From Lutibacter oricola (GTDB lineage Bacteria; Bacteroidota; Bacteroidia; Flavobacteriales; Flavobacteriaceae), in the NCBI RefSeq assembly GCF_900106565.1, contig NZ_FNNJ01000005.1:124001-188000 (forward strand): DNA of 64,000 bases, given 5' to 3'. Numbering within the stretch: the stretch's first letter is position 1; each line of letters begins with the position of its first letter. A program made the position numbers and the translations under genes. Positions 45,265 through 64,000 of the stretch are shown here, piece by piece. A model generated the notes under the pieces. That model was not told the origin of the DNA, did no database searches, and worked only from the letters and a program-made list of their open reading frames with translations.

Positions 45265-45329
45265 GATAAAATAAAGTTATTACAAGGTAAATTTCACCAA
45301 TTTAAAGATTCTAATTTATACTTTTTTTG
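45265..45329 (+). promoter_or_regulatory. polysaccharide-regulon promoter 1 (two 21-bp-spaced boxes)
   Basis: Box A GATAAAATAAAG (45265), box B GGTAAATTTCACC (45286), 21 bp apart; TTTG of the -7 element (TTTGTATAAG) at 45326, exactly 40 after box B. ATG of the VOC gene is at 45380. No -33 TTG, as expected for an activator-dependent promoter. Confidence 0.75.
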
Positions 45330-45379
45330 TATAAGAGATTTTCTCAAATTTAATTATTAACCTTTTATAACAATAAAAC

Positions 45380-45700
45380 ATGGATTATAAATTTAGTCAT
45401 ATAGGAATACCAACAACCGAAGATAAAAATTGGGACGGTTATTGTGAACCAGGAAAATTTAAATATACAGATTTTGCTAAAGATGAATACAATGTTGAAT
45501 ATGTAAAGTTTGATAAGGATAGTGAAGCACATGAAATGGTTAAAACAATGCCACATGTTTCTTATTTTGTAGATAGCATTGAAGAAGCCATTGAAGGTAA
45601 AGAGCTTTTAGGAGCTATTTTTTCACCAGCAGAAGGTGTACGTGTTGCATATGTAGAACATAAAGGATCGCCTGTTGAGTTTTTAGAAATTAAAAGTTAA
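45380..45700 (+). CDS. VOC-superfamily (glyoxalase-fold) small protein
   Basis: 106 residues, cytoplasmic. FSHIGIPTTEDKNW at the start and VRVAYVEHKGSPVEFLEIKS at the end are the paired strands and metal-ligand positions of a VOC half (His, Glu). It leads the polysaccharide block and is 3 bases from the GH16 gene, so it probably acts on a sugar intermediate, for example as isomerase or lactonase; that is inference. Reaction unknown. Confidence 0.7.
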   Translation: MDYKFSHIGIPTTEDKNWDGYCEPGKFKYTDFAKDEYNVEYVKFDKDSEAHEMVKTMPHVSYFVDSIEEAIEGKELLGAIFSPAEGVRVAYVEHKGSPVEFLEIKS

Positions 45701-45703
45701 AAA

Positions 45704-46729
45704 ATGAAACATTTAAAATCTTATAGTTTTTTAACAGCACTAACAGCTGTTGGAACGCTTTTCTTTTTTAGCTGTGGATCTCAAACCAAATCAGCTTCAA
45801 AAATTAAAACAACTACAGCAATTTTACCTTTCTCAGACCAAGAAAACAACGGAAACTGGGTGCTAAATACTGATGTTAGTGATGAATTTAACACTAAAAC
45901 AATAGATGAAGACAAATGGTATATTGTTGGAAAGTTCGAAAACGGAAAACCAGTTTACAAACATCCTGATAAACCAAATAAAAAAGTTTGGATTGGTAGA
46001 GCTCCATCACAATTTTCAGGAAGAAACTATAGATTAGAAGATGGTAAATTAATGTTAGAAACTCGTTGGGAACCAAATTTTCCGTTTAGCGAAACACCAG
46101 ACAAACCTGTTGGTGAAAAACGTTATGAATATAAAAACATAACCACAGCCTGTTTTATAGGTAGAAAAGAATTTAAATATGGTTATATGGAAATAAAATC
46201 TAAAGCTGCCGATGCTGAAATAACTAGCTCTTTTTGGGCAACAGGAAATGGTACTGAGTTTGATATGTTTGAAATGTTTGGAGATCATAGACAATCTACA
46301 AAACTAGATAAAGATAGAGAGTTATGGTGGTCTATTCACGATTGGACAAAGGACGGAAAAGGAAAATCAGTATATACAGAGCATAGAGATTTAGGTTTTA
46401 GAGTAGCAGATGATTTTCATGTATATGGAATAGATTGGAGTGAAACAGGAATTAAATATTATATAGACGGTAAGTTATTTTTTGAAACTACCAGAGATCA
46501 AATTAATGCCTGGGATGACATAGCTAAAAAGAAAGGCGGAAATGGAACCAAAGATAATTATGTAATTACAAGCCCAATTCATATCTGGTTAGATCAAGAA
46601 ACTTTTCCTTGGCACGGCGTACCTGATAGCTTAGAAGATTTAGAAATTAATAGTCCTGAAGGAAAAAAGAAAGATGGAATTGTTGATTTCGAAATTGAAT
46701 ATGTACGAGTTTGGCAAAAAAATAAGTAA
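45704..46729 (+). CDS. GH16 endo-galactanase-type lipoprotein
   Basis: 341 residues. Lipidated Cys24 (GTLFFFSC). The GH16 catalytic motif E-x-D-x-x-E is TEFDMFEMFG, with Glu185 nucleophile, Asp187 and Glu190 acid/base; the extra-residue (beta-bulge) form is typical of the agarase/carrageenase/porphyranase branch. The WWSIHDW, DFHVYGIDWSETGIKYYIDG and IWLDQETFPWHG strands complete the jelly roll. Probably surface-located and cuts the polymer first. Substrate among red-algal galactans cannot be fixed from sequence; context favours carrageenan or furcellaran. Confidence 0.88.
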   Translation: MKHLKSYSFLTALTAVGTLFFFSCGSQTKSASKIKTTTAILPFSDQENNGNWVLNTDVSDEFNTKTIDEDKWYIVGKFENGKPVYKHPDKPNKKVWIGRAPSQFSGRNYRLEDGKLMLETRWEPNFPFSETPDKPVGEKRYEYKNITTACFIGRKEFKYGYMEIKSKAADAEITSSFWATGNGTEFDMFEMFGDHRQSTKLDKDRELWWSIHDWTKDGKGKSVYTEHRDLGFRVADDFHVYGIDWSETGIKYYIDGKLFFETTRDQINAWDDIAKKKGGNGTKDNYVITSPIHIWLDQETFPWHGVPDSLEDLEINSPEGKKKDGIVDFEIEYVRVWQKNK

Positions 46730-46756
46730 ATAATAATAACACTTAATATATAAATC

Positions 46757-47113
46757 ATGAAAAAAATATTAGTAACATTAGTATTAGTACTAACAGTAAC
46801 AGTAACTTTTGGACAAAACAAATGGCAACAAAAACAAATCAAATATTTTGTAGATGCAGCTCAAACTGAATTTAAATTAGATGATGCTAAAACAAAAGAA
46901 TTAACAAGTTTTAGAACAGATATGGTTTTAGAATACCATGCGTTACAAAAAAAAGCTAAGGCTAATGAAATTACAAAAGAAGAGCGAAAAGAAAAAGGAA
47001 AAGAAATAAGTAAAAAATTCAATAAAAAGTTAATTAAGTTAACTGGAAAATCTTACAAAGATCTAGCTCCATTTATGGACAGATTACGTAAAGAATTAAA
47101 AAATTTAAAATAA
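46757..47113 (+). CDS. small secreted helical protein, paralogue 1
   Basis: 118 residues, signal peptide ending TVTFGQ; mature part starts NKWQQKQIKYFVDAAQ and is all-helical and basic (KKAKANEITKEERKEKGKEISKKFNKK). It shares layout and motifs with the next gene 6 bases away, so the pair is a tandem duplication. No known domain; it sits inside the polysaccharide block. Confidence 0.75.
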   Translation: MKKILVTLVLVLTVTVTFGQNKWQQKQIKYFVDAAQTEFKLDDAKTKELTSFRTDMVLEYHALQKKAKANEITKEERKEKGKEISKKFNKKLIKLTGKSYKDLAPFMDRLRKELKNLK

Positions 47114-47119
47114 TTTAAC

Positions 47120-47473
47120 ATGAAAAAAATTCTATTAACATTAGTAGTTTTATTTACTATTACCGCATCATTTGGACAAAACAAATGGCAACAAAAACAA
47201 ATTAGCTACTTTGTAGATGCTGCCGTAAAAGAATATAGCCTAAACGAAGATCAAAAAACAGAACTTAATGAAATTCGTACAACAGTTATTATGGCCTATA
47301 TAAATGGAGCTAAAAAAGTTAAAAGTGGAGAATTAACTAAAAATGAAAATAAGGAAATCACTAAAAAAGCATCTAATGTTTTTAATAAAAAATTTGGAAA
47401 AATGATTGGAAAAAATTACAAAGAATTTTCTCCTTTCCTTCAAAAAATAGCCAAAGAAATTAAGGATTTATAA
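47120..47473 (+). CDS. small secreted helical protein, paralogue 2
   Basis: 117 residues, signal peptide ending TASFGQ; NKWQQKQISYFVDAAVKEYSL mirrors paralogue 1 (NKWQQKQIKYFVDAA), as do FNKKFGKMIGKNYKE and FNKKLIKLTGKSYKD. Helical, basic, periplasmic or extracellular. Followed by a strong hairpin. Confidence 0.75.
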   Translation: MKKILLTLVVLFTITASFGQNKWQQKQISYFVDAAVKEYSLNEDQKTELNEIRTTVIMAYINGAKKVKSGELTKNENKEITKKASNVFNKKFGKMIGKNYKEFSPFLQKIAKEIKDL

Positions 47474-47496
47474 TTTTCATTTATAAAATAAATAAC

Positions 47497-47538
47497 CAAG
47501 ATAATACTCCCAACATAGAGTATTATCTTGATTTTTTA
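47497..47538 (+). terminator. hairpin between the small secreted pair and the sulfatase
   Basis: 13-bp stem CAAGATAATACTC (47497-47509)/GAGTATTATCTTG (47518-47530), then T's. No promoter was found before the sulfatase, so read-through probably supplies it. Confidence 0.85.
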
Positions 47539-47589
47539 TTAAAAAATTTCAAAACAATTTATTAAAATAACACAAATATTTTAAAAATA

Positions 47590-49050
47590 ATGAAACTACT
47601 AAGGTTAATCTTTTGCACATTTTATTTAACTGTATTTAGCTGTAGCGCAAATACTTCTACTAATAAAAAAACTCCACCTCCTACAAAACCTAATATACTG
47701 GTTATTCTTTGTGACGATCTAGGTTATTCTGATGTTGGTTTTAATGGCTCAAAAGATATTCCAACACCTAACTTAGACAAGCTCGCCAAAAACGGAACTA
47801 TTTTTTCTTCAGCATATGTTACACACCCATTTTGTGGCCCTAGCAGAACTAGTTTAATGACTGGTGTTTACGCTCATAAAATTGGTGCACAATTTAACCT
47901 ACCTCCAAACAGTGGAGAAACCATAAAAAAAGGTATTTCAACAAAAGAAACATTTATTAGTAAAGTATTAAATGATGCTGGTTATTATACTGGAATAATG
48001 GGTAAATGGCATTTAGGTTCAAACGAAGGTTACAGACCTAATGAAAGAGGTTTTGATGAGTTTTATGGATTTTTAGGTGGCGGACACAACTATTTTCCTG
48101 AACAATACAGAGCAGCTTATGCTAGGCAGAAAAAAAATGGAAATAAAATAATTTGGGACTATTTACATCCATTAGAATATAACGGAAAACCTGTAAAAGA
48201 AACTGAGTATGTTACTGACGCCCTTTCTAGAGAAGCGGTAACTTTTATAGATAAAGCATCTAAAAAAGAAGATCCTTTCTTTTTATACTTATCATACAAC
48301 GCTCCACATACTCCGCTTGAAGCCAAAGAAGAAGATTTAAAATTATTTCAACATATTAAAGATAAAAAAAGAAGAACTTATGCAGCAATGGTTTATGCTG
48401 TAGATAGAGGTGTAAAAAAAGTAGTTGAAAGTTTAAAGGCTACAAATCAATTTGATAACACACTTATTGTTTTCTTTAGTGATAATGGAGGAAAAACAAA
48501 AGCAGGAGCTACCAATTTTCCGCTACGAGAAGGAAAAGGAAGTACTTGCGAAGGTGGTTTTAGAGTTCCTATGTTTTTCCATTGGCCAAATGTTGTACCT
48601 GCAGGTGCAATTAACAACAACCCAATTTCTGCTTTAGATTTTTATCCAACTTTTGCACATTTAGCAGGTGCCAAAATTCCTGAAGGAAAAAAATTAGATG
48701 GAAAAAATATTTGGAAAAATTTTATTGAAGGAAAAAATTCTTACACAAACGAACCTATTTTTGTTCTTCGACATAGATTAAAATTTAGCGATGTTGGTGT
48801 AAGAAAAAATGAGTTTAAAGCTTTAAAAATATACAACCAAACTTGGAAATTGTATGATGTTACCAAAGACAAAGGTGAAAAAATAGATTTAAGTAAAAAA
48901 TATCCTAACATTTTAAAAGACCTTGTACAAGAGGCTGAAAAATGGAGTAAAACGCACCAAGAACCAAAATGGTGGCATGATAAAAAAACAGGTATTCAAT
49001 GGAAAGAAGAAAAAATGCCTCATTTTAATGAAACTTTCAAAATAAAATAA
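47590..49050 (+). CDS. S1-family sulfatase lipoprotein
   Basis: 486 residues. Lipidated Cys18 (TVFSC). Metal aspartates in ILCDDLGYSD (42-43), formylglycine motif FCGPSR with Cys82, GKWHLGSNEG, and FFSDNGGKTK. It removes sulfate esters from oligosaccharides in the periplasm or at the surface; Cys82 must be matured by a formylglycine-generating enzyme, not encoded here. Several S1 subfamilies act on carrageenan (S1_7, S1_17, S1_19); the GGGHNYFPEQYR region makes me lean to S1_19-like, without proof. Confidence 0.9.
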   Translation: MKLLRLIFCTFYLTVFSCSANTSTNKKTPPPTKPNILVILCDDLGYSDVGFNGSKDIPTPNLDKLAKNGTIFSSAYVTHPFCGPSRTSLMTGVYAHKIGAQFNLPPNSGETIKKGISTKETFISKVLNDAGYYTGIMGKWHLGSNEGYRPNERGFDEFYGFLGGGHNYFPEQYRAAYARQKKNGNKIIWDYLHPLEYNGKPVKETEYVTDALSREAVTFIDKASKKEDPFFLYLSYNAPHTPLEAKEEDLKLFQHIKDKKRRTYAAMVYAVDRGVKKVVESLKATNQFDNTLIVFFSDNGGKTKAGATNFPLREGKGSTCEGGFRVPMFFHWPNVVPAGAINNNPISALDFYPTFAHLAGAKIPEGKKLDGKNIWKNFIEGKNSYTNEPIFVLRHRLKFSDVGVRKNEFKALKIYNQTWKLYDVTKDKGEKIDLSKKYPNILKDLVQEAEKWSKTHQEPKWWHDKKTGIQWKEEKMPHFNETFKIK

Positions 49051-49067
49051 CAAAATTATAGTCTTGT

Positions 49068-49104
49068 AAAAAAGCACTTAAATTATTTTTAAGTGCTTTT
49101 TTAC
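49068..49104 (+). terminator. terminator after the sulfatase
   Basis: AAAAAAGCACTTAAA/TTTAAGTGCTTTTTT stem, 4-base loop. Confidence 0.93.
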
Positions 49105-49112
49105 TTTACAAG

Positions 49113-49177
49113 GGTAAAATTTAGTAACAACTTGGTAAAATTTAGATTAACTTAAAAAAGAAAAAACTAGTACTTTG
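49113..49177 (+). promoter_or_regulatory. polysaccharide-regulon promoter 2
   Basis: Two identical boxes GGTAAAATTTAG at 49113 and 49134 (21 bp apart), then TTTGTATAG with TTTG at 49174-49177, exactly 40 after the second box. The ATG of the aldolase is at 49219. Confidence 0.85.
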
Positions 49178-49218
49178 TATAGTGAAATAAACTAAAATTT
49201 GAAATTAACAACATAATT

Positions 49219-49890
49219 ATGTATCCAATAGAACAACAGGCAATGTCACCTGAAATTATAAGTAAAGTAAATAAAGCTGGCATTATAGGAATGCTTATTA
49301 TTGATGAAGTAAAACACGCGGTTCCTGTAGCCAAAGCACTTTTAAAAGGAGGAATAAACACTATAGAACTTACATTAAGAACTCCAGCTGCCTTAGACGC
49401 TGCAAAAGCAATAAAAAAGGAACTACCAGAAGTATGCCTTGGTTTTGGAACAGTTTTAACAGTTGAGCAAGTAAAAGCTGTTAAAGATGTTGGAGCTGAT
49501 TTTGCAGTTTCTCCAGGTTGTAATCCAAAAATAATTGCTGAAGCTCATAAACTTGGATTATCATTTTCTCCAGGAATTATGACTCCAACCGATATTGAAA
49601 TGGCAGTTGAACAAGGCTGTAGAGTAATAAAATATTTCCCTGCAGAATCTTCAGGTGGAATGAATCATTTAAAAAACATGGGAGCTCCATATCAATACTT
49701 AGGAATTAAATACATTCCTTTAGGAGGTGTAAATATGAGTAACGCAAGAGGTTATTTAGAATCTGATTTAATTTCAGCTATTGGTGGATCTTGGATTGCA
49801 AAGCGTGATTTAATTCTTGCCGAAAACTGGGATCAAATAACTGCAAATGCCAAAGAAATAACAGATTTAGTAAAAGAAATAAGAGGATAA
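49219..49890 (+). CDS. eda: 2-keto-3-deoxy-6-phospho-sugar aldolase (KDPG/KDPGal type)
   Basis: 223 residues. Schiff-base Lys138 in CRVIKYFPAE and the base Glu50 in NTIELTLRT; FGTVLT, SPGCNPK and PLGGVNMSN are the usual phosphate and carboxylate contacts. It cuts the 6-phosphate to pyruvate and glyceraldehyde-3-phosphate. Paired with the kinase 22 bases downstream. In this block the substrate is probably the galacto form from anhydrogalactose, though the sequence does not distinguish gluco from galacto. Confidence 0.92.
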   Translation: MYPIEQQAMSPEIISKVNKAGIIGMLIIDEVKHAVPVAKALLKGGINTIELTLRTPAALDAAKAIKKELPEVCLGFGTVLTVEQVKAVKDVGADFAVSPGCNPKIIAEAHKLGLSFSPGIMTPTDIEMAVEQGCRVIKYFPAESSGGMNHLKNMGAPYQYLGIKYIPLGGVNMSNARGYLESDLISAIGGSWIAKRDLILAENWDQITANAKEITDLVKEIRG

Positions 49891-49912
49891 CTAAGAAATT
49901 AATAACATACAC

Positions 49913-51001
49913 ATGAAAACAATTGTAACTTTTGGAGAAATAATGGGGCGCTTAGCTGCGCCTGGAAATATGCGTTTACGTCAAACTCGTCAGTTAGATG
50001 TAACTTATGCTGGTGCTGAAGCTAGTGTTGCTGCATCTATATGTAATTTTGGAGGAAAAGCACGTTACGTAACGGCATTACCAAAACATTCTTTAGCTGA
50101 AGCAACTATGGACGCTGTTCGTTCTGTTGGAATTGATACGCAATATGTTTTAAGAACTGATAATGGTCGTTTAGGAACTTACTTTTTAGAAACTGGTGCA
50201 AACCAACGTCCAAGTAATGTAATTTATGACAGAGAAGATTCTTCAATTGCAGTTACACCTGCAAGCGAATACAATTGGGCTGAAATTTTTGATGGTGCCG
50301 GTTGGTTACATTTAAGTGGAATTACACCTGCATTATCTAAAAATGCTGCTGAAGCTACTTTAGTTGCTGCTCAAAAAGCTCAAGCTGCTGGGGCAAAAGT
50401 TTCAATAGATTTAAATTTTAGAGGAAAACTTTGGAAATGGGACGCTACAAAATCTGCTCGCGAATTAGCACAAGAAACAATGCGTAAAATTTTACCTTTT
50501 ATTGATGTTGTTATTGGTAACGAAGAAGATTGCCACGATGTTTTAGGAATTAGAGCTGGTGATACGGATGTACATTCAGGAAAGTTAGATACTTCAAGAT
50601 ATCCAGATGTTGCACGCCAAGTTGTAGCACAATTTCCAAATGTGAGCAAAGTAGCAATTACTTTAAGAGAAAGTTTATCTGCTTCGCACAACAACTGGGG
50701 AGCTATGCTTTATGAAGCTGCTACAGATACGCCTTCTTTTGCACCTTTAGATGCTGAAGGAAATTACGAATCGTATAAAATAAAAAACATTGTAGACCGA
50801 GTTGGTGGTGGAGATTCTTTTGCTGGTGGTTTAATTTTTGCTTTAAACACACCAGAATTAAGCGATTCTGCAACTGCTGTAAAATATGGTGTTGCTGCTT
50901 CTTGTTTAAAACATTCAATTAAAGGAGATTTTAATTACTCAACTCGTGCCGAAGTTGAAGCTCTTATGGGAGGTTCTGGTTCTGGTAGAGTTGTTAGGTA
51001 A
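49913..51001 (+). CDS. kdgK: 2-keto-3-deoxy-sugar-acid kinase (PfkB family)
   Basis: 362 residues, PfkB fold: start TFGEIMGRLAAPGNMRLRQ, substrate contacts YAGAEASVAASI, and the closing DRVGGGDSFAGGLIFAL with the catalytic Asp. It phosphorylates KDG or KDGal for the aldolase. Ends GGSGSGRVVR. Second gene of block 2. Confidence 0.92.
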   Translation: MKTIVTFGEIMGRLAAPGNMRLRQTRQLDVTYAGAEASVAASICNFGGKARYVTALPKHSLAEATMDAVRSVGIDTQYVLRTDNGRLGTYFLETGANQRPSNVIYDREDSSIAVTPASEYNWAEIFDGAGWLHLSGITPALSKNAAEATLVAAQKAQAAGAKVSIDLNFRGKLWKWDATKSARELAQETMRKILPFIDVVIGNEEDCHDVLGIRAGDTDVHSGKLDTSRYPDVARQVVAQFPNVSKVAITLRESLSASHNNWGAMLYEAATDTPSFAPLDAEGNYESYKIKNIVDRVGGGDSFAGGLIFALNTPELSDSATAVKYGVAASCLKHSIKGDFNYSTRAEVEALMGGSGSGRVVR

Positions 51002-51056
51002 ATTTATAAAAGAAGTAGTAGTTACTTCCAAGTTAAACACATAATGAAATATTAAA

Positions 51057-53144
51057 ATGATTAATAAAAATAAAATACAAAAAATCACAAGTTTTACACT
51101 TGTGATTTTTTGTTTGATGTTAGTTCAAAGCTGGACAACAATTCAAACAGAAATAAAGCCTAAACAAAACACAAGCTCTGAACCGGTTGTTTTAGAAAAT
51201 AACTCAATCAAAGTAATAGTTGATACAAAAAGTGGAACTTTTCAAGTTACAGAAAAAAAATCTGGACAAATATGGAATCCAGACCCTTGGGAAAATGCCG
51301 CTGGTATTTTAACAATAAAGGATTCAAAAGGAAAATCTCAAGATGTTAACATTTCAAATAGCGAATCTATTGTAGTAAATAAAAAAGATGAAACAACAGT
51401 ATCTATAAGCTTTAACAATCCTAAGCTAAATAATAACACAATTGCTAGTGGAGTATCAATTAAAACTGAGATCCGATTAACGCCTACTAAACTAGATGTT
51501 GAAGTTATTTCATATGAAGCATGTAACAATAAATTGGTTGAACTAAGATACCCTGCAAGGGCTTTTAGTTTAGAAACTGATGTAGATAAAGGAGCTGCTG
51601 TAATTCCTCAAAAGCAAGGTGTTATTTGTCCGTCTTACATTTTTCCAATGAACGGAGGTCGATTCTGTATGTGGGATGATGCTACTTATTATGGCAGATC
51701 AAAAGGTAAATTACCTTTATTCAACAACAACATTGGTTTATCTATGCCTTGGTGGGGAACCTATAATGAAAAATCAGCGGTTATTGGTATTATCGATGAA
51801 TCTGCAAGACCAAGTATGTTTTTTAACATAAACAACAATGGTCAGTATTTATTTACTCCTAAAGGTATTATGTCTCCTAATAAAAGAATAGAATTCTTAG
51901 ATCCTGTTTGGAACTTAAACAGAAAAAATGAGAAAAAAATTATTAGCTATCAATTTATTCCAAATGGAACACACGTTGAAATGGCAAAAGTTTACAGAAA
52001 AGAAGCCATTAAAAGAGGTTATTTTGTTTCTTTAAAAGATAAGGCTAAGAGAGATCCTGATGTAAAAAAATTACAAGGAGCCATTTATATGGGATTGTAT
52101 GGAGGTTATCCTCATTATGTTGAAATGCCAGGAATGGCTTTCAATTTTAAAGATTTAAGCAATATAATTAATACAACACACAATGACTTAGGTGTTGACA
52201 ATGCTTTTTTCCATGCTTGGGGAGTATTTTCTAATTTTGTACCAAATTGCTGGCCTATTAATGAAAACTTAGGAGGTGTAGCTGGTTTAAAAGAAGCAGT
52301 TGACTTAACTAAAAAATATGGATATTTATACTCATCATACCATGCTTATTCTGCCACTTTAGAAAACGACCCTGAATTTAACACAGGTTTATTTGCAAAA
52401 AGAAAAGATGGCAAACTTATAAATACAAATAGCAGATGGGCAAACATAGATCAGAATAAACAATTAGGTTTAGCAAAAAAAAGCTTACATAAGGAAATCG
52501 CGGCATTAGGTTTAGAGGCTGATATTACCGATATTTCTTTTGCAACTTATCCAGATGAAGACAATACTGGCTTATTTAATTTAGCTAAATATATTGATTC
52601 TCTAAATTTAGTTAATGGTACTGAGCACGGTCAACAACAATGGATTCCTTATTTCGATATGTTTGAAGGTATGACATATAAAAATTCTAATCTTTGGGAA
52701 TTTTCTCACCCAGCACCTTTATTCAATTTAGTTTATCATGATGCTATTGCTGTGTTTGGAAAAATTCAAGATCCAGATAACCAAATGTCTAAATATGGAG
52801 ACTTTAAAGTAAAGAGTTTAAGAAACATTTTATATGGAATTGGTACAACAATTTTCTTTTCACCTTACGAGTTTGACGGAATGAAAGATATGATTAAAAT
52901 GGCCAATGAAGTAGTTAGCCCTGTTAATAAAGAAACTTTCTTTGAAGAATTAATTAGTCATGAATATTTAAGTGCTGATTTTAATCTTCAAAAAACAACT
53001 TTTTCTTCAAATACAGAAGTAATGGTTAATATAGGACCTGTTAAACAAACTACACCTAATGGAATAACAATTCCTGCTTTTGGGTACCAAGTAAAATTTA
53101 AAAACGGAAAGATTAAAAAAGGACAGTTTAAAACAAGTATTTAA
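51057..53144 (+). CDS. GH129-like alpha-galactosidase, candidate 3,6-anhydro-D-galactosidase
   Basis: 695 residues with an N-terminal hydrophobic signal segment (ITSFTLVIFCLMLVQSW). A beta-sandwich (about 45-300, SVIGIIDE-type strands) leads into a TIM barrel (about 330-600). Candidate catalytic pair: Asp492 (LEADITD) and Glu523 (VNGTEHGQQ), 31 residues apart, the same distance as the pair I recall for the bifidobacterial GH129 enzyme NagBb. Marine GH129 members release terminal 3,6-anhydro-D-galactose from carrageenan. Family call rests on fold, this spacing and the neighbours GH127, GH2 and KDG genes; not confirmed by search. Confidence 0.68.
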   Translation: MINKNKIQKITSFTLVIFCLMLVQSWTTIQTEIKPKQNTSSEPVVLENNSIKVIVDTKSGTFQVTEKKSGQIWNPDPWENAAGILTIKDSKGKSQDVNISNSESIVVNKKDETTVSISFNNPKLNNNTIASGVSIKTEIRLTPTKLDVEVISYEACNNKLVELRYPARAFSLETDVDKGAAVIPQKQGVICPSYIFPMNGGRFCMWDDATYYGRSKGKLPLFNNNIGLSMPWWGTYNEKSAVIGIIDESARPSMFFNINNNGQYLFTPKGIMSPNKRIEFLDPVWNLNRKNEKKIISYQFIPNGTHVEMAKVYRKEAIKRGYFVSLKDKAKRDPDVKKLQGAIYMGLYGGYPHYVEMPGMAFNFKDLSNIINTTHNDLGVDNAFFHAWGVFSNFVPNCWPINENLGGVAGLKEAVDLTKKYGYLYSSYHAYSATLENDPEFNTGLFAKRKDGKLINTNSRWANIDQNKQLGLAKKSLHKEIAALGLEADITDISFATYPDEDNTGLFNLAKYIDSLNLVNGTEHGQQQWIPYFDMFEGMTYKNSNLWEFSHPAPLFNLVYHDAIAVFGKIQDPDNQMSKYGDFKVKSLRNILYGIGTTIFFSPYEFDGMKDMIKMANEVVSPVNKETFFEELISHEYLSADFNLQKTTFSSNTEVMVNIGPVKQTTPNGITIPAFGYQVKFKNGKIKKGQFKTSI

Positions 53145-53285
53145 ACCAATTAACAAAAACTGTATATATAGTATTTCAACTAGATATAAACTATACATTG
53201 TTGATTTCAACAAAAAAAGACTATAACTTAGCGGAATACAGCTATTAGAATTGTAGCATAACTATAACAAAACATTACAATATAA

Positions 53286-56549
<3,264 letters not shown>

Positions 56550-56573
56550 CTTTCAATAATTACATAAACACAC

Positions 56574-56604
56574 AAAAGCTTGTCTAATTGACAAGCTTTT
56601 TTTG
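56574..56604 (+). terminator. terminator after GH2
   Basis: AAAAGCTTGTC (56574-56584)/GACAAGCTTTT (56590-56600) stem followed by T's. Confidence 0.92.
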
Positions 56605-56802
56605 TATACCTACATATTATTTTGAACAAAAAATCTAATTATTTAGCTCAATTTTACCATAAACAATAATAAAAAATTAAAAAAAACTTAATAAAAACTA
56701 AACATTTACATAAATTAGACTAAAAACAAGTAATTAATAAATATTCTATTATACCTTAGTTTAACCTTAAAAATAAGGTGTTTAGCAAAAGTAATTATTA
56801 AA

Positions 56803-58437
56803 ATGACAAAAAAAATAAACAAACACTGGCACAAAATTACCTTAACACTTCTGTTTGGGCTTGTTTTTGGTTGGTCTACATTTATTTATGCCATTCAATC
56901 AACTTACTTTCAAATTCCACAAAAAAAATATATAAATAAAGAAACAGCAATAGCTGATTCAATAACTTCTTTAGAAATCGCTTACACAAACCTTATTAAA
57001 AAAGGTGATACGCTAAACGCAATTAGAACATTAAATAATTTAGCCAGAGTATATAGTCATCAAGGAAATCATAAAGAATCTTATGACAAATTATGGGCCG
57101 CATTAATTTTAGCTGACACTGCAAACAAAACAGAAACAAAATCATCAATTTATCGTGAAATAGGTAGACATTACAGTTACTATCACAGAAAAGATAAAGC
57201 AATTCATTTTTTAAACCTATCGCTAAATATTAAAAAGGAATTAGTTAAAAAAGGTAAAATTGACAAGCATAGACTTGTAAACAATTATTCTTCTTTTGTT
57301 TCAACTTATAGAGAATTAAATAATTTTGAATTAGGAGAAAAGTACTTAGATAGCTGCTATATATATTTTGACACTTTAAAAAACAAATCAAGAGCAAATT
57401 TTCTAAAATTTGAAGAAGCCGTTATTTTGAGTCACAAAGGAAAAGATGATGATGCAATTGCTATTTTTAACAACTTAATACCAAAGTTTACCAATAACCA
57501 ATACGGATATCTCGTATTAATCTACAAGTATTTAGGTGATAGTTATCAAAACAATGAGAATTTCATTCAAAGTCAATTTTGTTATAAAAAAGCAATTGAG
57601 GTTTCTGAATTAAAAAATGTACATAAAGATTTTATTCCGTTAGTTTATGAAGGTCTTTCTAGTTTATACTTTTCAAAAGGAAAATATTTACAGGCATATA
57701 ATTCATTAAAAAAAGCCAAGGACCTTGACGCTGTTTTTTTTGACAGCAGAAGTCCTAACAACGCCCCTTTATTAGAAATTCAAGATGATTTTAGAAAAGA
57801 TAAAGAACTTCAAATTAAAACACTTCAAGAGCAAAAATTAAAACAATTTGAGCAGGAAGAAAAAGTAGAACTTTTAGAAAAAATATTACTATTAGGCCTA
57901 TTAATGTTCTTATTGTTATTTGGATATAATTCATACCGAGCATTAAGAACAAAACACAAAATAGAGAAAAAACTGTTAAAAAAAGAAAGAGAACTTGAAA
58001 AGCAAAAAGATACGGAACTTATTGAATTAAAAAATAAAGAACTAGCTGCATCGGTATTAAAACTAATTGAAAAAGATGTTTTTCTAGAACAAATTAAAGA
58101 CCGTTTATCTAAAACACCAAGTACAGAACTTAACAAAGACACTAAAAAAATTATTAGCTCAATTTCTAACAAAAAAAATGAAAACTGGAATGAGTTTCAA
58201 GCAAGATTTGTAGCCATTAATAAAAGTTTTTATAAAAAATTAGAAGCCGATTTTCCAAATTTAACAATGAATGATCAAAAACTTTGCGCGCTAATTAAAC
58301 TAAATTTTTCGAGTAAGGATATTGCACAATTATTAAATATGTCTATTGAAAGTGTTCACACCACAAGAAGTAGATTAAGAAAAAAATTAAATATAACACG
58401 AGAGGTAAACTTAAAAAAGTTTATTTCTAACATATAA
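56803..58437 (+). CDS. membrane TPR sensor with LuxR-type helix-turn-helix
   Basis: 544 residues. An N-terminal hydrophobic helix (ITLTLLFGLVFGWSTFIYAI), a TPR domain (about 45-320), a membrane helix (about 357-377, LLLGLLMFLLLFGYNSYRAL), a coiled coil and a C-terminal GerE-like HTH (LIKLNFSSKDIAQLLNMSIESVHTTRSRLRKKLNI). This topology puts the TPR sensor in the periplasm and the DNA-binding part in the cytoplasm. Upstream (56764-56779) is ACCTTA-AAAA-TAAGGT, a possible operator. It probably senses the galactan products; target promoters are not shown. Confidence 0.85.
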   Translation: MTKKINKHWHKITLTLLFGLVFGWSTFIYAIQSTYFQIPQKKYINKETAIADSITSLEIAYTNLIKKGDTLNAIRTLNNLARVYSHQGNHKESYDKLWAALILADTANKTETKSSIYREIGRHYSYYHRKDKAIHFLNLSLNIKKELVKKGKIDKHRLVNNYSSFVSTYRELNNFELGEKYLDSCYIYFDTLKNKSRANFLKFEEAVILSHKGKDDDAIAIFNNLIPKFTNNQYGYLVLIYKYLGDSYQNNENFIQSQFCYKKAIEVSELKNVHKDFIPLVYEGLSSLYFSKGKYLQAYNSLKKAKDLDAVFFDSRSPNNAPLLEIQDDFRKDKELQIKTLQEQKLKQFEQEEKVELLEKILLLGLLMFLLLFGYNSYRALRTKHKIEKKLLKKERELEKQKDTELIELKNKELAASVLKLIEKDVFLEQIKDRLSKTPSTELNKDTKKIISSISNKKNENWNEFQARFVAINKSFYKKLEADFPNLTMNDQKLCALIKLNFSSKDIAQLLNMSIESVHTTRSRLRKKLNITREVNLKKFISNI

Positions 58438-58483
58438 TAAAAAGTTAACCGACTTTAATTATTAACAATTAAAAGTTTGAATT

Positions 58484-59341
58484 ATGAAATTAGTATTAAA
58501 AAATTCAGAAGCTTCAGCTAATACTAGATTAAATATTCTTAAAAAAGAAGTACCTTGTTTAGACGCTGCCTGGCATTACCACTCACAATATGAATTATTG
58601 TACATTTCAAGAAGTACTGGAATTCGATTTGTTGGCGATAGTGTTTCGCAATTTTCACCTGGAGACTTAGTATTAGTAGGGCCATATTTACCACATTTAT
58701 GGAGAAATGATGCAAACTATTATACGGGTGATGACTCAGTAAATGTAAAAACCATTATTACAAAATTTAACAAAAATTTTATTGGCGAAGGAACTTTTGA
58801 CAATACTGAATTTTCTGAAATTAATAAAATGCTAGATGAATCTAAATTTGGTATTTGTTTTGGAAATGATACAAGTAGAAGCCTTCATAATGAAATTATT
58901 GAATTAGCTGATTTAAATCCTGCTTTGCAAAGCATTAAATTATTAGAAATTTTAAATAAATTATCAACTACCAATGATAGAACAATTTTGTCATCTTCAG
59001 ATATGCGACAATATACTTCTGAAAATTCTGACAGAATAGATGTTGTATTGAAATATATATCTGATAATTACGCAAGCTATATTGGTCTTAATGATGTTGC
59101 TGAAATTGCTTGCATGACCACCAATTCTTTTTGCCGATTTTTTAAGAAAATGACCAATAAATCATTTACCCAATTTTTAAATGAAGTTCGAATAAGAAAC
59201 GCTACTAGATTATTAATCCAAGACAATTTACCTATTTCAGAAATATGCTATATTGTTGGTTACAACTCGGTTACAAACTTCAATAAACAATTTAAACAAA
59301 TTATGAGTTGCACACCAAAAGCATATAGAGAAAGCATTTAA
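58484..59341 (+). CDS. AraC-family transcriptional activator with cupin sensor
   Basis: 285 residues. N-terminal cupin (about 20-90, AAWHYHSQYELLYISRS, VSQFSPGDLVLVGPYLPHLW) and two C-terminal HTH units (about 185-285, YIGLNDVAEIACMTTNSFCRFFKKMTNKSFTQFLNEVRI; IQDNLPISEICYIVGYNSVTNFNKQFKQIMSCTPKAY). Such proteins bind a sugar and activate from direct repeats. It lies 46 bases after the TPR regulator and 53 bases before a 21-bp-spaced box pair, and is the best candidate to bind the four matching promoters in the block. Confidence 0.92.
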   Translation: MKLVLKNSEASANTRLNILKKEVPCLDAAWHYHSQYELLYISRSTGIRFVGDSVSQFSPGDLVLVGPYLPHLWRNDANYYTGDDSVNVKTIITKFNKNFIGEGTFDNTEFSEINKMLDESKFGICFGNDTSRSLHNEIIELADLNPALQSIKLLEILNKLSTTNDRTILSSSDMRQYTSENSDRIDVVLKYISDNYASYIGLNDVAEIACMTTNSFCRFFKKMTNKSFTQFLNEVRIRNATRLLIQDNLPISEICYIVGYNSVTNFNKQFKQIMSCTPKAYRESI

Positions 59342-59652
59342 TTGAATAAATTTTCACATTTTTCAAATAGAATTATCTCAATTTATAATACTAAGGTAAA
59401 ATATAGTTAAGGCAGGGTAAATTCTACCAACATTCTAACAAGAAAATCAATTTAATTTGTATAGAATTAAATACAAGAATAGTACACTTTTGTTAACAAC
59501 AACTTATGCTATTATTGCTTATTAAAAACATAGTTAATATACTATTTAAATTGAAATAATAAAAGCTAAACAGAGATGTTGGTTTCGTTCCAATTATATA
59601 GAATTAAATTACTAAGTTTAACAAAAATTAACCTAATTTAAATTACTATTTG
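59342..59652 (+). other. 311-base gap: promoter 3 and a long leader
   Basis: It contains the AraC-type promoter (59395-59459) and then about 190 AT-rich bases before the transporter ATG at 59653. No coding frame and no strong hairpin or recognised riboswitch in the leader. The other three promoters of this design lie only 44-54 bases from their genes. Confidence 0.6.
59395..59459 (+). promoter_or_regulatory. polysaccharide-regulon promoter 3
   Basis: Box A GGTAAAATATAG (59395), box B GGTAAATTCTACC (59416), 21 bp apart; TTTGTATAG with TTTG at 59456-59459, exactly 40 after box B. Confidence 0.8.
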
Positions 59653-61218
59653 ATGAACTCATATAAAAAAAATGCATACTTATTTTCAACAATTGTAGCA
59701 ATGGGCGGTTTCGTCTTTGGTCTTGATGCTGCTTTAATTTCTGGTACAATAAAATATATTTCAGAAGAATTTTTATTAAATGATATTCAATTAGGAATGG
59801 TAGTTGGGGCTCCGGCACTTGGTGTATTATTAGCATTGCTTTTTGCAGGTTATGCTTGTAATAAATATGGTAGGCGAAACACATTAATTATTGTTGCTGC
59901 TTTATATGTTATTTCTGCAGTTGGCTCAACAATTGCACCTAGTTATATGGCTTTATTATCAGCAAGGTTTCTTGGTGGATTAGCATTTACATCTATTTCA
60001 ATTGCATCTATGTATATTGGTGAAATAGCACCTCCAAAATTAAGAGGTAAACTTGTAACTATGATTCAAATAAACATAGTTGTTGGATTATCTGGTGCTT
60101 ACTTTATCAATTATTTAATTCTTCAGTTAGCTTCTTCGGATGCAGCTTGGGCTACTGAATACGGGTTTAATACGCATACGTGGCGTTGGATGTTAGGTTC
60201 TGAAATTATACCTGCTATTATCTGGTTAGGTCTTTTATTTATGGTTCCAAAAAGTCCTTCTTGGTTGTTTATTAAGGGTCGAATAGAAGAAACAAAAAAG
60301 ACTTTATTAAAATTAATGCCTGAAAATAAAATTGAGGCTCATCTTACAGAAATGAAAGAGAGTATGGATGATAGTTCTGATGACAGATCGGTAATGTCTC
60401 AACTTAAAGAAATTTTTAGCAAAAAATTTAGAGTTGTATTTATAATTGCATTAACCTTAGCTATTGCACAACAATCAACTGGTATTAATGCTATTTTATT
60501 CTATGCCCCAACCGTTTTTGAACAAATTGGATTAGGAAAAGACGCTGCATTTATGCAAGCAATTTGGACTGGTTTAACAGGTTTAGTTTTCACAGTCTTC
60601 GGATTATTACTTGTAGACAAATTAGGGCGTAGACCAATGATTTTAGGAGGTATGCTTTGGGTTGTAGTAAGTTTAGGAATTGCGTTTTACGGATTTAAAA
60701 CCGCTACTTACACACTTACTAAAGATGCTGTTGCCGAACTTACAGAAATTGAAAACCCAGAACGGTTAAACAGTATGATTGATGTTGAATATGGTAGTGA
60801 TATTGAATTAAAAAGAGCCTTAATTGATTCTATTGGTGAAGAAGAAGGAAGAAAACACTCAAGTTTATTAATTCAAAAATCGGCAAAGATAAATGCAATA
60901 TTAATTTTAATAGGAATACTTAGTTTTATTGCGGCATTCCATTTTTCTGTTGGACCAGTTATGTGGGTGTTATTTTCTGAAATATTCCCAACCTCAATCC
61001 GAGGAATCGCTATTCCATTTTTCACCTTAATTACAAGTACAACAAGCTGGTTAATTCAGACATTTTTCCCAACTCAATTATCCAGTTTTGGTATTAGTAA
61101 CACCTTACTGTTTTATGCAACAACAGTATTTATCGGTATGATAATACTATCAAAATATTTAGTAGAAACTAAAGGTTTAAGTATTGAAGAAATTCAGCTT
61201 AAACTTCAAAAAAAATAA
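59653..61218 (+). CDS. MFS sugar porter
   Basis: 521 residues, 12 membrane helices. Sugar-porter signatures: KYGRRNTLII, RFLGGLAFTSISIASMYIGEIAPPKLRG, VPKSPSWLF, QQSTGINAILFYAPTVF, DKLGRRPMILGG and VETKG near the end. An insertion of about 55 residues (about 365-415, TKDAVAELTEIENPERL) lies between helices 9 and 10. It should bring galactose, anhydrogalactose or a short oligosaccharide into the cell. The ATG at 59653 is chosen over a TTG one codon earlier. GH127 follows after 24 bases. Confidence 0.9.
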   Translation: MNSYKKNAYLFSTIVAMGGFVFGLDAALISGTIKYISEEFLLNDIQLGMVVGAPALGVLLALLFAGYACNKYGRRNTLIIVAALYVISAVGSTIAPSYMALLSARFLGGLAFTSISIASMYIGEIAPPKLRGKLVTMIQINIVVGLSGAYFINYLILQLASSDAAWATEYGFNTHTWRWMLGSEIIPAIIWLGLLFMVPKSPSWLFIKGRIEETKKTLLKLMPENKIEAHLTEMKESMDDSSDDRSVMSQLKEIFSKKFRVVFIIALTLAIAQQSTGINAILFYAPTVFEQIGLGKDAAFMQAIWTGLTGLVFTVFGLLLVDKLGRRPMILGGMLWVVVSLGIAFYGFKTATYTLTKDAVAELTEIENPERLNSMIDVEYGSDIELKRALIDSIGEEEGRKHSSLLIQKSAKINAILILIGILSFIAAFHFSVGPVMWVLFSEIFPTSIRGIAIPFFTLITSTTSWLIQTFFPTQLSSFGISNTLLFYATTVFIGMIILSKYLVETKGLSIEEIQLKLQKK

Positions 61219-61242
61219 TAAAATAAATAATATTTAGAAATA

Positions 61243-63228
61243 ATGAGCACTATTTCAAACATACATAATAAGGCTATAACAAACACTTCAGAAAGTCCTT
61301 TTGTAAAATTAAAAAGTATCAACTTTGGAGATTGTAAATGGAATTCAGGATTTTGGGCTGATAAAGTAAAAACAGCCGAAGATAAAATGCTTCCGTATAT
61401 GGGAGACTTGTTATGTGGCGACATTGGTCATGGCTTAAACAACTTTAAAATTGCTGCAGGAGAAAAAGAAGGAGAGCACAAAGGTTTTTATTGGCACGAT
61501 GGTGATTTCTTTAAATTTATGGAAGCCAAAACCTACATTTATGGACTTTCAAAAGAAACCTCAATTTTAAATGAATTGGATGAATATATTGCTTTAATTG
61601 GAAGAGCTCAAGAAGAAGATGGATATATTCATACTCACGTTCAAATTACAGAAGGTGTAGACCGATTTTCTAATCGAAAATACCATGAAATGTACAACTT
61701 TGGGCATTTGTTTATTGCCGCATCTGTACATTTTAGAATTACTGGTCAACGTAACTTCTTAGATATTGCTATAAAACAAGCAGATTTATTGTACACCTAC
61801 TTTATGCCTGACACAAAACACTACCAACGTTTTGGTTTTAATCAAACTCAAATTATGGGATTAGTGGAATTGTACAGAACTGTTAAGGATAAAAAATACT
61901 TAAAGCTAGCAGAAAAATTCATTAATAGAAGAGGTACTTTTGAAATCAAACACGACTCTACTACAGAAGGTTACCCTATTGGAGATATGGTACAAGAGCG
62001 TACACCATTAAGAGAATCTAAAGAAGCTGTTGGTCATGCCGTTTTAGCCTTGTATTATTATGCAGGTGCTGCTGATGTTTATGCCGAAACTGGTGAAAAA
62101 GCTTTAATTGAAGCTCTTGATACCCTTTGGGAAAACGTTACAGGTAAAAAAATGTATGTTACAGGAGCTGTTGGACAAGCACACTATGGGGCTTCAACAA
62201 ACTTAGACATGATTGAGGAAGGCTTTATAGACGCCTATATGATGCCAAATATGACTGCTTATAATGAAACTTGCGCAAACCTTTGTAATGCAATGTTTAG
62301 CAGTAGAATGATGGGTATTAAAGAAGAATCTAGATATGCAGATATTATAGAGTTAGTATTATACAACAGTGGTTTATCTGGTATTAGTTTAGAAGGAAAA
62401 GATTATTTCTACTCTAACCCATTAAGAATGGTAAATAACACTAGAGATTATGAAGCTCATGCTGATGTAACTGAAAGCCCAGTTAGACAACCATATTTAG
62501 AGTGTTTTTGCTGTCCACCAAACCTAGTAAGAACAATTTGTAAAACTTCTGGGTGGGCATATAATTTATCTGAAAATGGAGTTGCAGTTGTTTTATTTGG
62601 AGGAAATAATTTAAATACCACTATGTTAGATGGTTCTCCTTTAAAATTAACTCAAGACACAGATTACCCTTGGAAAGGCGTAGTTAAAATTACTGTTGAT
62701 GAATGCAAAACTTCTGCTTTTGACATAAAAGTAAGAATTCCAAAATGGGCTGTAGGAAGTACTATTAAAGTTAATGGAAAAGCAATTAATGTTAAAGTTA
62801 TTCCTGGTACTTTTACTACTATTAACAGAGTTTGGAAAGCCGGCGACACTGTTGTTTTAGATATGCCTATGGAAGTTACTTTAATTGAAGGACATGATAG
62901 AATTGAAGAGGTTAGAAATCAATTAGCAGTAAAAAGAGGCCCAATAGTTTACACTATTGAAACTCCAGATTTACCTAAAGATACTGCAATTTTAGATGTG
63001 TATTTAAAAAGTGACGCTCCTTTAAATGCTGTACATAAACCAGATTTTTTAGGAGGTGTTACAGTAATAGAAACTGAACTTTTATTAAGAAAAGGAAAGA
63101 CTGATGATATGTATCAAACTATTACAAAACCTACATTCACACCTCATAAAACTCAACTAGTTCCGTATTTCGCTTGGAGTAATAGAGGTCAAGCTGAAAT
63201 GACTGTTTTTATGCCTGTTGTTTGGTAG
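61243..63228 (+). CDS. GH127 enzyme, cytoplasmic (candidate 3,6-anhydro-D-galactosidase)
   Basis: 661 residues, no signal peptide, so cytoplasmic. GH127 (alpha/alpha)6 barrel: MIEEGF with the acid/base-type Glu, NETCANLC (Glu-x-Cys zinc ligands), and ECFCCPPNLVRT with the Cys-Cys nucleophile/zinc pair; all four GH127 residues known from bifidobacterial HypBA1 are conserved. A C-terminal beta domain follows. Terrestrial GH127 cut beta-L-arabinofuranosides; marine members in carrageenan loci release 3,6-anhydro-D-galactose. Substrate here is inferred from context. Confidence 0.88.
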   Translation: MSTISNIHNKAITNTSESPFVKLKSINFGDCKWNSGFWADKVKTAEDKMLPYMGDLLCGDIGHGLNNFKIAAGEKEGEHKGFYWHDGDFFKFMEAKTYIYGLSKETSILNELDEYIALIGRAQEEDGYIHTHVQITEGVDRFSNRKYHEMYNFGHLFIAASVHFRITGQRNFLDIAIKQADLLYTYFMPDTKHYQRFGFNQTQIMGLVELYRTVKDKKYLKLAEKFINRRGTFEIKHDSTTEGYPIGDMVQERTPLRESKEAVGHAVLALYYYAGAADVYAETGEKALIEALDTLWENVTGKKMYVTGAVGQAHYGASTNLDMIEEGFIDAYMMPNMTAYNETCANLCNAMFSSRMMGIKEESRYADIIELVLYNSGLSGISLEGKDYFYSNPLRMVNNTRDYEAHADVTESPVRQPYLECFCCPPNLVRTICKTSGWAYNLSENGVAVVLFGGNNLNTTMLDGSPLKLTQDTDYPWKGVVKITVDECKTSAFDIKVRIPKWAVGSTIKVNGKAINVKVIPGTFTTINRVWKAGDTVVLDMPMEVTLIEGHDRIEEVRNQLAVKRGPIVYTIETPDLPKDTAILDVYLKSDAPLNAVHKPDFLGGVTVIETELLLRKGKTDDMYQTITKPTFTPHKTQLVPYFAWSNRGQAEMTVFMPVVW

Positions 63229-63252
63229 TAAAAAAAGAAAATAATTTAATTT

Positions 63253-63282
63253 AAAAGCCAAAGAAAATCTTTGGCTTTTTTT
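63253..63282 (+). terminator. terminator after GH127
   Basis: AAAAGCCAAAG (63253-63263)/CTTTGGCTTTT (63269-63279) with T tail. Confidence 0.92.
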
Positions 63283-63301
63283 ATATGTTACTTTTTTAAA
63301 A

Positions 63302-63366
63302 GATAAAATTAAGTTACCTACAGGTAAAAATAAGCAATCAACTTTCAGGTATAATTTGTTTATTTG
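63302..63366 (+). promoter_or_regulatory. polysaccharide-regulon promoter 4
   Basis: Box A GATAAAATTAAG (63302), box B GGTAAAAATAAG (63323), 21 bp apart; TATTTG with TTTG at 63363-63366, exactly 40 after box B. The lipoprotein GH127 ATG is at 63407. Confidence 0.75.
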
Positions 63367-63406: not shown

Positions 63407-64000
63407 ATGAAAAAACTTATTTTTTCAATATTAAGTTTATCTATTTTATTTGTTTCTTGTAAACAAACTAAAGAAAAAAATTCAGCAATAAAAATTAAAA
63501 ATAAAGTTGACATTGCTCAAATAACTCAACAGTTAGACAAAAAAACAACTTCAAACCTTGAATCTGGTATTATTGACAACATTAATAGTCCACACGTAAA
63601 ATTCAAAAGTATAAACGTTGGTGATTGCCAATGGACTGATGGTTTTTGGGCAGACAAATTTAAAACAGCTGAAGAAGTAATGGTTCCTTACATGGGAGAA
63701 TTGTTAACTGGAGATGTTGGCCACTCTTTAAACAATTTTAAAATTGCTGCTGGTTTAAAAGAAGGTAAACACAAAGGAATGAAATGGCATGATGGAGATT
63801 TCTACAAATGGATGGAAGCCTCAATGTACATTTACGCACAAAATAAAGATGAAAAAATTCTTAAAGAGTTAGATGAGTATATTAAGATTATTGGAAAAGC
63901 TCAAGCTCCTGATGGTTATATCCATACTAAAGTTCAAACTGAAGATGATATGCACCGTTTTGGAAACAGACAGCACCATGAAATGTATAATTTTGGTCAC
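63407..64000 (+). CDS. GH127-family lipoprotein (3' end outside window)
   Basis: 198 residues visible, open to the edge. A lipoprotein signal (MKKLIFSILSLSILFVSC, Cys18) and a linker of about 45 residues precede the GH127 start (VKFKSINVGDCQWTDGFWAD), clearly paralogous to the cytoplasmic enzyme (VKLKSINFGDCKWNSGFWAD) through HEMYNFGH. The catalytic cysteines lie beyond the window. Export to the periplasm or surface separates its job from that of its cytoplasmic twin. Confidence 0.88.
   Translation, partial: MKKLIFSILSLSILFVSCKQTKEKNSAIKIKNKVDIAQITQQLDKKTTSNLESGIIDNINSPHVKFKSINVGDCQWTDGFWADKFKTAEEVMVPYMGELLTGDVGHSLNNFKIAAGLKEGKHKGMKWHDGDFYKWMEASMYIYAQNKDEKILKELDEYIKIIGKAQAPDGYIHTKVQTEDDMHRFGNRQHHEMYNFGH

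Follow-up and report, generated by a model that had tools for sequence, protein, structure and literature searches.

We found that four promoters in a 64,000-nucleotide stretch of the Lutibacter oricola genome (contig NZ_FNNJ01000005.1, positions 124,001 to 188,000; hereafter the window) share one upstream arrangement, in which two directly repeated boxes start 21 bp apart and the second box starts 40 bp before the TTTG of the -7 element. On the evidence of sequence comparison, the paired boxes very probably serve as operator for CgrA, an AraC-family regulator whose gene lies in the same carrageenan locus, and the promoters behind them are presumably weak. The four operator-promoters are given below in positions of the window, with scores from a matrix that was built from other genomes.

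45265 to 45329, plus strand: operator-promoter 1; boxes at 45265 and 45286, TTTG at 45326; exact match, 53.3 bits; upstream of the block with a 106-amino-acid protein, GH16, two paralogs of 117-118 amino acids and a sulfatase.
49113 to 49177, plus strand: operator-promoter 2; boxes at 49113 and 49134, TTTG at 49174; exact match, 29.1 bits; upstream of dauD, dauC, dagB, GH2, a TPR-LuxR gene and cgrA.
59395 to 59459, plus strand: operator-promoter 3; boxes at 59395 and 59416, TTTG at 59456; exact match, 49.2 bits; immediately 3′ of cgrA and 5′ of the genes for a major facilitator superfamily (MFS) permease and GH127.
63302 to 63366, plus strand: operator-promoter 4; boxes at 63302 and 63323, TTTG at 63363; exact match, 32.6 bits; upstream of a second GH127 gene and the rest of the locus past the window end.

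These sites had been proposed in a preliminary description of the window, and all 12 coordinates and both spacings given there were exact. It had also placed an AraC gene at 58484 directly before one of the sites, and the site at 59395 does directly follow cgrA (58484 to 59341). The box consensus G(G/A)TAAAATwwAG held as a direct repeat, but the repeated unit is longer than the hexamers and its two halves differ. In addition, the TTTG of the -7 element is present in all four sites, but the A of the consensus TAnnTTTG is present in none. When at most one mismatch was tolerated, GRTAAA-N15-GGTAAA-N34-TTTG occurred four times on the two strands of the window, and all four occurrences are perfect. 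Shuffled windows contained 0.02 matches on average and none of 100 shuffles reached four, which bears out the statement that such fixed spacing is unlikely by chance.

The same paired boxes recur in relatives. We examined 58 loci (1.06 Mb in total) that were selected solely by their AraC protein, and CgrA is thus present in them by construction; the pieces are up to 20.9 kb long, and some were shortened by contig ends. Going by the organism names in the record titles, these loci come from what we take to be the classes Flavobacteriia, Cytophagia, Bacteroidia, and Saprospiria. Pairs of G[GA]TAAA peaked at a spacing of 21, with 61 pairs where spacings from 7 to 79 averaged 5.7, and TTTG stood at offset 61 in 31 of these 61 pairs. 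A matrix was then built from 28 non-redundant strict sites (31 before removal of near-duplicates). It reads GGTAAAATAwkGTAA-N6-GGTAAATTnyAynAAT-N20-TTnnTTTG, with halves that are not identical, and positions beyond the search pattern (6, 7, 11, 12, 14, 28, 31, 36, 57, and 58) are also conserved. When the -7 part was left out, the matrix found 140 boxes in 55 loci, and TTTG lay at offset 61 in 85 of the 140, compared with a median of 1 at offsets 40 to 109. There was no build-up of TTG in the -33 region among the 85 box matches of at least 20 bits in the relatives' loci.

With the -7 part included and a threshold of 18 bits, the matrix gave 121 sites in 52 of the 58 loci, a count that includes training sites and near-duplicates from sister species (for example, L045/L046, L063/L068, L064/L078, and L085/L095). 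No site of at least 18 bits was found in one Markov shuffle of each locus. The distance from the second box to TTTG was exactly 40 bp in 110 of the 121 sites and off by one in the other 11. Only two site midpoints fell inside open reading frames (ORFs), though ORFs make up 88.6% of the sequence. Furthermore, the first downstream gene resembled a protein of the window locus in 104 cases; of the others, 14 lacked a match and 3 extended past the end of the sequence. These first genes were SusC (27, frequently with no more than 28-33% identity), sulfatase (20), GH16 (17), GH127 (11), dauB (8), dauD (7), a DMT-type permease (5), and others. In 34 of the 58 loci, a site with the orientation of cgrA lay within 300 bp 3′ of that gene. 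Meanwhile, sites before cgrA were rare (2 of 121), in keeping with the finding that cgrA does not respond to 3,6-anhydro-D-galactose (D-AnG) in Zobellia.

Sites in Zobellia galactanivorans were compared with published induction data; the genome used is taken to be of this species, as it encodes ZGAL_3152 at 100% identity. Neither this genome nor the window was used in training the matrix, although two Lutibacter loci near the window were. The pattern with up to three mismatches hit 10 places in the Zobellia genome, compared with 3 for the reversed pattern. With locus tags assigned by gene order and similarity, strong sites were found before the ZGAL_3157-type permease (47.6 bits), the ZGAL_3150-type GH127 (39.1 bits), the susCD pair at the position expected for ZGAL_3581/3580 (46.3 bits), and the ZGAL_181-type sulfatase (29.7 bits). 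This sulfatase and the neighbour assigned as ZGAL_3146 share 65.3% identity, the figure published for ZGAL_181. A fifth place, of 5.6 bits, lies 3′ of cgrA and 5′ of the ZGAL_3158-type transporter. Among the remaining places, one is between opposite-strand genes, one is inside an ORF, and three are near cupin-AraC-type genes.

According to the parts of the main text of PMC5698469 that we used, including its Table 1 of selected genes, the response to D-AnG within the locus peaks at ZGAL_3157 (7.0 log2) and ZGAL_3150 (7.1). Each of these genes directly follows one of the two strong sites of the locus, and the response declines along each run. The same RNA sequencing data list ZGAL_181, ZGAL_3158, ZGAL_3580, and ZGAL_3581 as induced by D-AnG, and cgkA, cgiA1, cgiA3, ZGAL_3629-3638, and cgrA as not induced. 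When the genes of Table 1 were grouped into units in this analysis, all five D-AnG-induced units carried a place, four of them strong and one weak (ZGAL_3158). No site of at least 6 bits was found in the 4.195-4.233 Mb stretches taken to hold ZGAL_3629-3638.

Across genomes, the sites follow the same pathway and the same regulator. We scanned 397 genomes of the family with the pattern, allowing up to two mismatches. At least three sites were present in 25 genomes, and all 25 were among the 35 that encode DauB (Fisher, 7e-32); with the reversed pattern, no genome in the site-count table exceeded two. Counting E values up to 1e-60 as CgrA matches, at least three sites were found in 24 of the 27 dauB genomes with a CgrA match and in one of the eight without (Fisher, 1e-4). 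Another 14 genomes had a CgrA match, no DauB, and 0-2 places, and we read their matches as other paralogs. The earlier proposal of an AraC-activated regulon is thus supported by the CgrA-bearing loci, the tracking across genomes, the intergenic placement, and the published induction in Zobellia, which together make such a regulon probable.

In the L. oricola genome itself (4.12 Mb, 57 contigs), the genome scan proposed in the preliminary description gave five perfect matches to its pattern, namely the four window sites and C16:289783. With one mismatch there were 10 matches, against one for the reversed pattern. A longer box pattern without mismatch found only the four window sites. In addition, a copy was found before susC at C20:218551, outside the window and on the other strand. 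It is degenerate, scoring 17.0 bits, just below the threshold, and both spacings are kept; the four blocks named earlier are thus not the only members. A designed pattern with up to two mismatches hit eight places, which were the four window sites, C51:476797, and three others. The copy at C51:476797 scores 36.9 bits and lies between lambda-carrageenase genes (PF25290, PF25292). The matrix was run on selected stretches, while whole genomes were scanned with the pattern. A loose box pattern with three mismatches gave 125 places in this genome against 134 for its reversed form, and loose box matches without the -7 part are untrustworthy because they are no better than this control.

Several observations weigh against assigning the sites to CgrA, or against CgrA as the whole explanation. 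First, six of the 58 loci had no 18-bit site; L053, L070, L081, and L082 encode close CgrA relatives, and L096 and L097 encode 28% paralogs. Second, of the eight dauB genomes that lack CgrA, five are less than 90% complete (G067, G149, G238, G332, and G361), and one genome (G050, locus L176) has dau genes and a 42% AraC neighbour with no good site; its operator may differ. Third, in the published Zobellia data, ZGAL_3151-3154 are not induced by D-AnG, although they lie in the same run after the ZGAL_3157 site, and the site before the induced ZGAL_3158 is the weak one. The kappa-carrageenase gene cgkA, which is strongly induced by carrageenan, has only an 8.9-bit candidate. CgrA alone therefore cannot explain the whole carrageenan response. 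Fourth, other proteins could bind at some distal copies: a 1304-amino-acid protein with an AraC-type domain is encoded 138 bp from the ZGAL_181 site on its other side, and a response-regulator AraC gene in the lambda-carrageenase locus could account for the C51 copy. Finally, three of the 10 Zobellia places are close to other cupin-AraC-type genes, at distances of 38, 53, and 85 bp from the gene start. Because such paralogs share the geometry, the binding protein cannot be told from a site alone.

The binder could be another protein, either the TPR-LuxR protein encoded directly before cgrA in the window (56803 to 58437) or a hybrid two-component regulator of AraC type. This explanation accepts the boxes as real, and the use of 21-bp direct repeats by hybrid two-component regulators in Bacteroides speaks for it, as does the presence of other kinds of AraC-domain gene next to two of the distal copies (L039 in the same genome and L197 in Zobellia). 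However, a TPR-LuxR relative occurs in just 9 of the 58 loci, compared with sites in 52, and we disfavoured this protein as the binder. The frequent position of a site directly after cgrA and the tracking of CgrA within the dauB genomes also argue against either protein, and we regard this explanation as unlikely.

It is less probable still, and in our view very doubtful, that an alternative sigma factor recognizes the boxes as part of the promoter, unaided by any activator. The rigid spacing to TTTG would fit such a reading, and the -7 box differs from the sigma-A consensus: among 86 relatives' sites, the second position has T 68 times, A 12 times, and C 6 times, so that the box is mostly TTnnTTTG. 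However, sigma contacts are smaller than two half-sites of some 16 bp that are separated by two helical turns, and they lie closer than 40 bp upstream. In addition, one AraC gene accompanies the sites, and in a further clade of regulators they stand beside a divergent AraC gene with TAnnTTTG or TAnnTTTA as the -7 box. Chance alignment of AT-rich boxes in DNA of 30% G+C was excluded by the shuffles, by the spacing peak in relatives, and by the scores in held-out genomes, and deserves practically no credence.

With CgrA as the ligand, the following mechanism can be proposed. CgrA would bind the two half-sites head to tail and recruit RNA polymerase to the presumably weak promoter, and transcription would begin roughly 8 bp downstream of the first T in TTTG. 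With the -7 box assumed to lie at -12 to -5, the starts of the half-sites would fall near -69 and -48, both facing the same side of the helix, and the inner half-site would reach about -33, where the -33 contact of the sigma factor is expected. AraC-type activators make contact with sigma from this position. Furthermore, the T instead of the consensus A at the second position of the -7 box suggests that the promoter is kept weak until the activator arrives; a TTnnTTTG box would give low basal transcription and make the activator necessary. The inducing signal may be D-AnG or a compound derived from it, sensed by the cupin domain, as the published Zobellia expression would imply. For the -7 box, the position at -12 to -5 is that described for Flavobacterium psychrophilum in the parts of PMC9723704 that we used. 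The absence of a TTG at -33 had been taken earlier as a sign of AraC-type activation. It does not accumulate in the relatives either, but this is weak evidence, because no -33 motif is identifiable in Flavobacterium johnsoniae according to parts of PMC7366714.

The annotated features around the four promoters are as follows.

45380 to 49050, plus strand: block 1; 106-amino-acid protein, GH16, two paralogs of 117-118 amino acids, S1 sulfatase.
49219 to 58437, plus strand: block 2; KDPG/KHG-type aldolase (dauD), pfkB-type sugar kinase (dauC), DagB-type 3,6-anhydro-D-galactosidase, GH2, TPR-LuxR.
58484 to 59341, plus strand: cgrA-type regulator of 285 amino acids, proposed ligand of the boxes (Pfam, predicted structure).
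59650 to 63228, plus strand: block 3; sugar-porter MFS permease and GH127.
63407 to 64000, plus strand: block 4; start of GH127b, which runs on to C20:189515.

The preliminary description had spoken of a galactan locus. Judged from its genes (GH16, S1 sulfatase, dau-type genes, 3,6-anhydro-D-galactosidase, GH2, MFS, and GH127), the locus is specifically a carrageenan locus, and by similarity its AraC gene is a CgrA-type regulator. The top PDB match of the DagB-type protein is 5opq, a 3,6-anhydro-D-galactosidase (E = 1.8e-294). Past the window end, further sulfatase, GH16, and GH2 genes were found by similarity. On the opposite strand there are genes for a TonB-dependent SusC-type receptor, SusD, an MR/MLE enzyme (dauB), an aldehyde dehydrogenase (dauA), and a RhaT-type permease. 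The dau names follow similarity to the Zobellia gene order. The tandem paralogs of 117-118 amino acids (46757 to 47473) have no Pfam match, and relatives of them occur in many of the 58 loci. There are two TPR-LuxR-type proteins in the locus, one in the window and one at L029 10552-12168; the first has a weak match to Sigma70 region 4.

The CgrA-type regulator is predicted to consist of an N-terminal cupin and a C-terminal AraC domain with two helix-turn-helix (HTH) units. The AraC-type Pfam matches PF12833 (1.9e-21) and PF00165 (2.6e-16) are above their cut-offs, while the N-terminal cupin match PF07883 (3.3e-4) is below its cut-off. The predicted model has a predicted local distance difference test (pLDDT) score of 82.6, with strands at 16-95 and helices at 180-284 arranged as two HTH units. 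Its best solved whole-chain matches are the AraC-family proteins ToxT, CsvR, and Rns, with template modelling (TM) scores of only 0.34-0.39, and isolated AraC-type DNA-binding domains reach a TM score to the target of 0.78-0.90. The first HTH is near-invariant in an alignment of 27 sequences, one 29% paralog included. Pfam found no periplasmic sensor, kinase, or receiver domain in the 285-amino-acid protein.

CgrA matches split into two groups, at 371-636 and 206-236 bits. The window protein is 39% identical to the regulator of the Z. galactanivorans carrageenan locus (ZGAL_3159) and comes from another group than that protein, with a different gene order. The view that these 39% regulators are unrelated paralogs was rejected, since their gene order is that of the Zobellia-type CgrA. 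Strict hexamers in 3.8-kb pieces around them gave no peak at 21, while a looser pattern and 20-kb pieces did reveal sites.

The geometry is not confined to carrageenan. Off the carrageenan loci, a divergent gene for a cupin-AraC-type protein of about 280 amino acids, 25-34% identical to CgrA, starts 40-94 bp from many of the pattern hits. Such neighbours were found in 14 of 20 cases (L211-L230) and in 2 of 20 of a comparison set (p = 2e-4); the hits of the first set had been picked partly by eye for the ATAGTATTA signature, and the comparison is biased. Three of the 14 are in genomes that also have a CgrA match, and L218, with an 856-amino-acid protein, was not counted. The first gene on the other side was alike in 15 of the 20. 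Four such genes, including the Zobellia one, were compared with Pfam and match dihydrodipicolinate synthetase (PF00701); the next gene in Zobellia is of the proline-racemase family (PF05544). From our reading of these names, this third clade may serve hydroxyproline use. Its Zobellia regulator has a cupin match (PF07883) over the cut-off, and its -7 box reads TAnnTTTG or TAnnTTTA. Members with the 21 + 40 geometry, divergent from a dihydrodipicolinate-synthetase-family gene, are seen at L201 7174-9127 (Z. galactanivorans) and in L212-L230. Two further Zobellia places with three mismatches, L209 6753 and L210 6364, lie 85 and 38 bp from the starts of further cupin-AraC-type genes.

Furthermore, 27 loci were collected by the third-clade protein from the best 30 of 80 matches, after L251, L260, and L271, which had already been seen, were dropped. 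With TTTG or TTTA allowed, 19 of the 27 had a match with at most two mismatches at spacings 21/61, against 0-5 at other spacings; this set is protein-led, and the pattern was shaped after earlier third-clade hits had been viewed. With up to four mismatches, the spacing controls in the third clade were not discriminating. On balance we lean, by a small degree, towards a rigid code for the whole cupin-AraC family of Bacteroidota, irrespective of pathway, in which G[GA]TAAWAT half-sites 21 bp apart, the inner one 40 bp before TTT[GA], would serve the two carrageenan groups and the third clade, and the carrageenan promoters, whose -7 box would have lost the consensus A, would be silent without the activator. 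If this is true, regulator-target pairs could be read straight from genomes.

The layout has known counterparts. In Escherichia coli, AraC occupies two direct half-sites, araI1 and araI2, 21 bp apart, and the inner one touches the -35 region of RNA polymerase. The layout is the same, but the sigma factor, box sequence, and organism differ. The araI-like period of 21 bp pointed out in the preliminary description is thus present, but alone it does not single out CgrA, because the hybrid two-component regulators of Bacteroides and the cupin-AraC paralogs share this geometry. For the former, predicted direct repeats averaging 21 bp are described by Ravcheev et al. (2013) in the parts of PMC3878776 that we used, which give no placement relative to the -7 box. 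These proteins share the AraC-type DNA-binding domain and the direct repeats with CgrA. However, they are membrane sensors with kinase and receiver domains, whereas CgrA is a 285-amino-acid protein with a predicted cupin. In Vibrio, the parts of PMC12125979 consulted describe XylRA, in which an AraC-type domain was assigned to AT-rich direct repeats by cross-genome comparison, as here; it differs in its LacI-type sensor domain, phylum, and pathway.

Another close known system is CgrA of Z. galactanivorans itself, which shares with the window an AraC gene beside dau, dag, and sulfatase genes and the same operator geometry. This regulator was described in 2017 as necessary for normal growth on carrageenan, and a cgrA deletion causes a lag and reduced growth there (Ficko-Blean et al. 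2017, PMC5698469). The main text parts of that paper, leaving its supplements aside, give no operator for CgrA. Likewise, we found no binding site of a carrageenan regulator in the literature searched, which covered few subscription papers and did not extend to preprints or supplements. Since 21-bp AraC-type direct repeats were already known in Bacteroides, what is new extends to the CgrA operator, its fixed 40-bp placement, the TTnnTTTG -7 box, and the predicted distal members. The operator permits a regulon to be predicted from sequence, including susCD, the distal Zobellia sulfatase, and the lambda-carrageenase locus of L. oricola. Membership of the last would link two carrageenan types under one regulator. 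In addition, the strict distance to an altered -7 sequence offers a testable model for activators that work with the unusual sigma factor of Bacteroidota.

Some further observations concern single copies. Back-to-back divergent operators were found at L052 17256/17463, L059 8090/8116, and L042 4626/4646, and in such pairs one intergenic region may serve two operons. In Flavobacterium algicola (L094 9992-10852), three reading frames share the broken-up cgrA relative, and four operators of at least 18 bits remain in the locus, which reflects either a decayed regulator or an assembly fault. In Zobellia, a kappa-carrageenase match lies at 290,821, just past L203. In L. oricola, the perfect pattern copy at C16:289783 (L032 9783) stands before a 490-amino-acid protein that has no Pfam match, and a link to galactan was not seen there. 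Two places with two mismatches each lie at C29:84427 (L289 4992), 118 bp before a 1029-amino-acid protein, and at C51:257429 (L290 4930), 69 bp from a 247-amino-acid AraC gene. Meanwhile, the stretch C51:472000-490000 (L039) forms a second carrageenan locus with two proteins that carry lambda-carrageenase (CGLA) domains, a sulfatase, a GLAA-B-type protein, and the response-regulator AraC gene.

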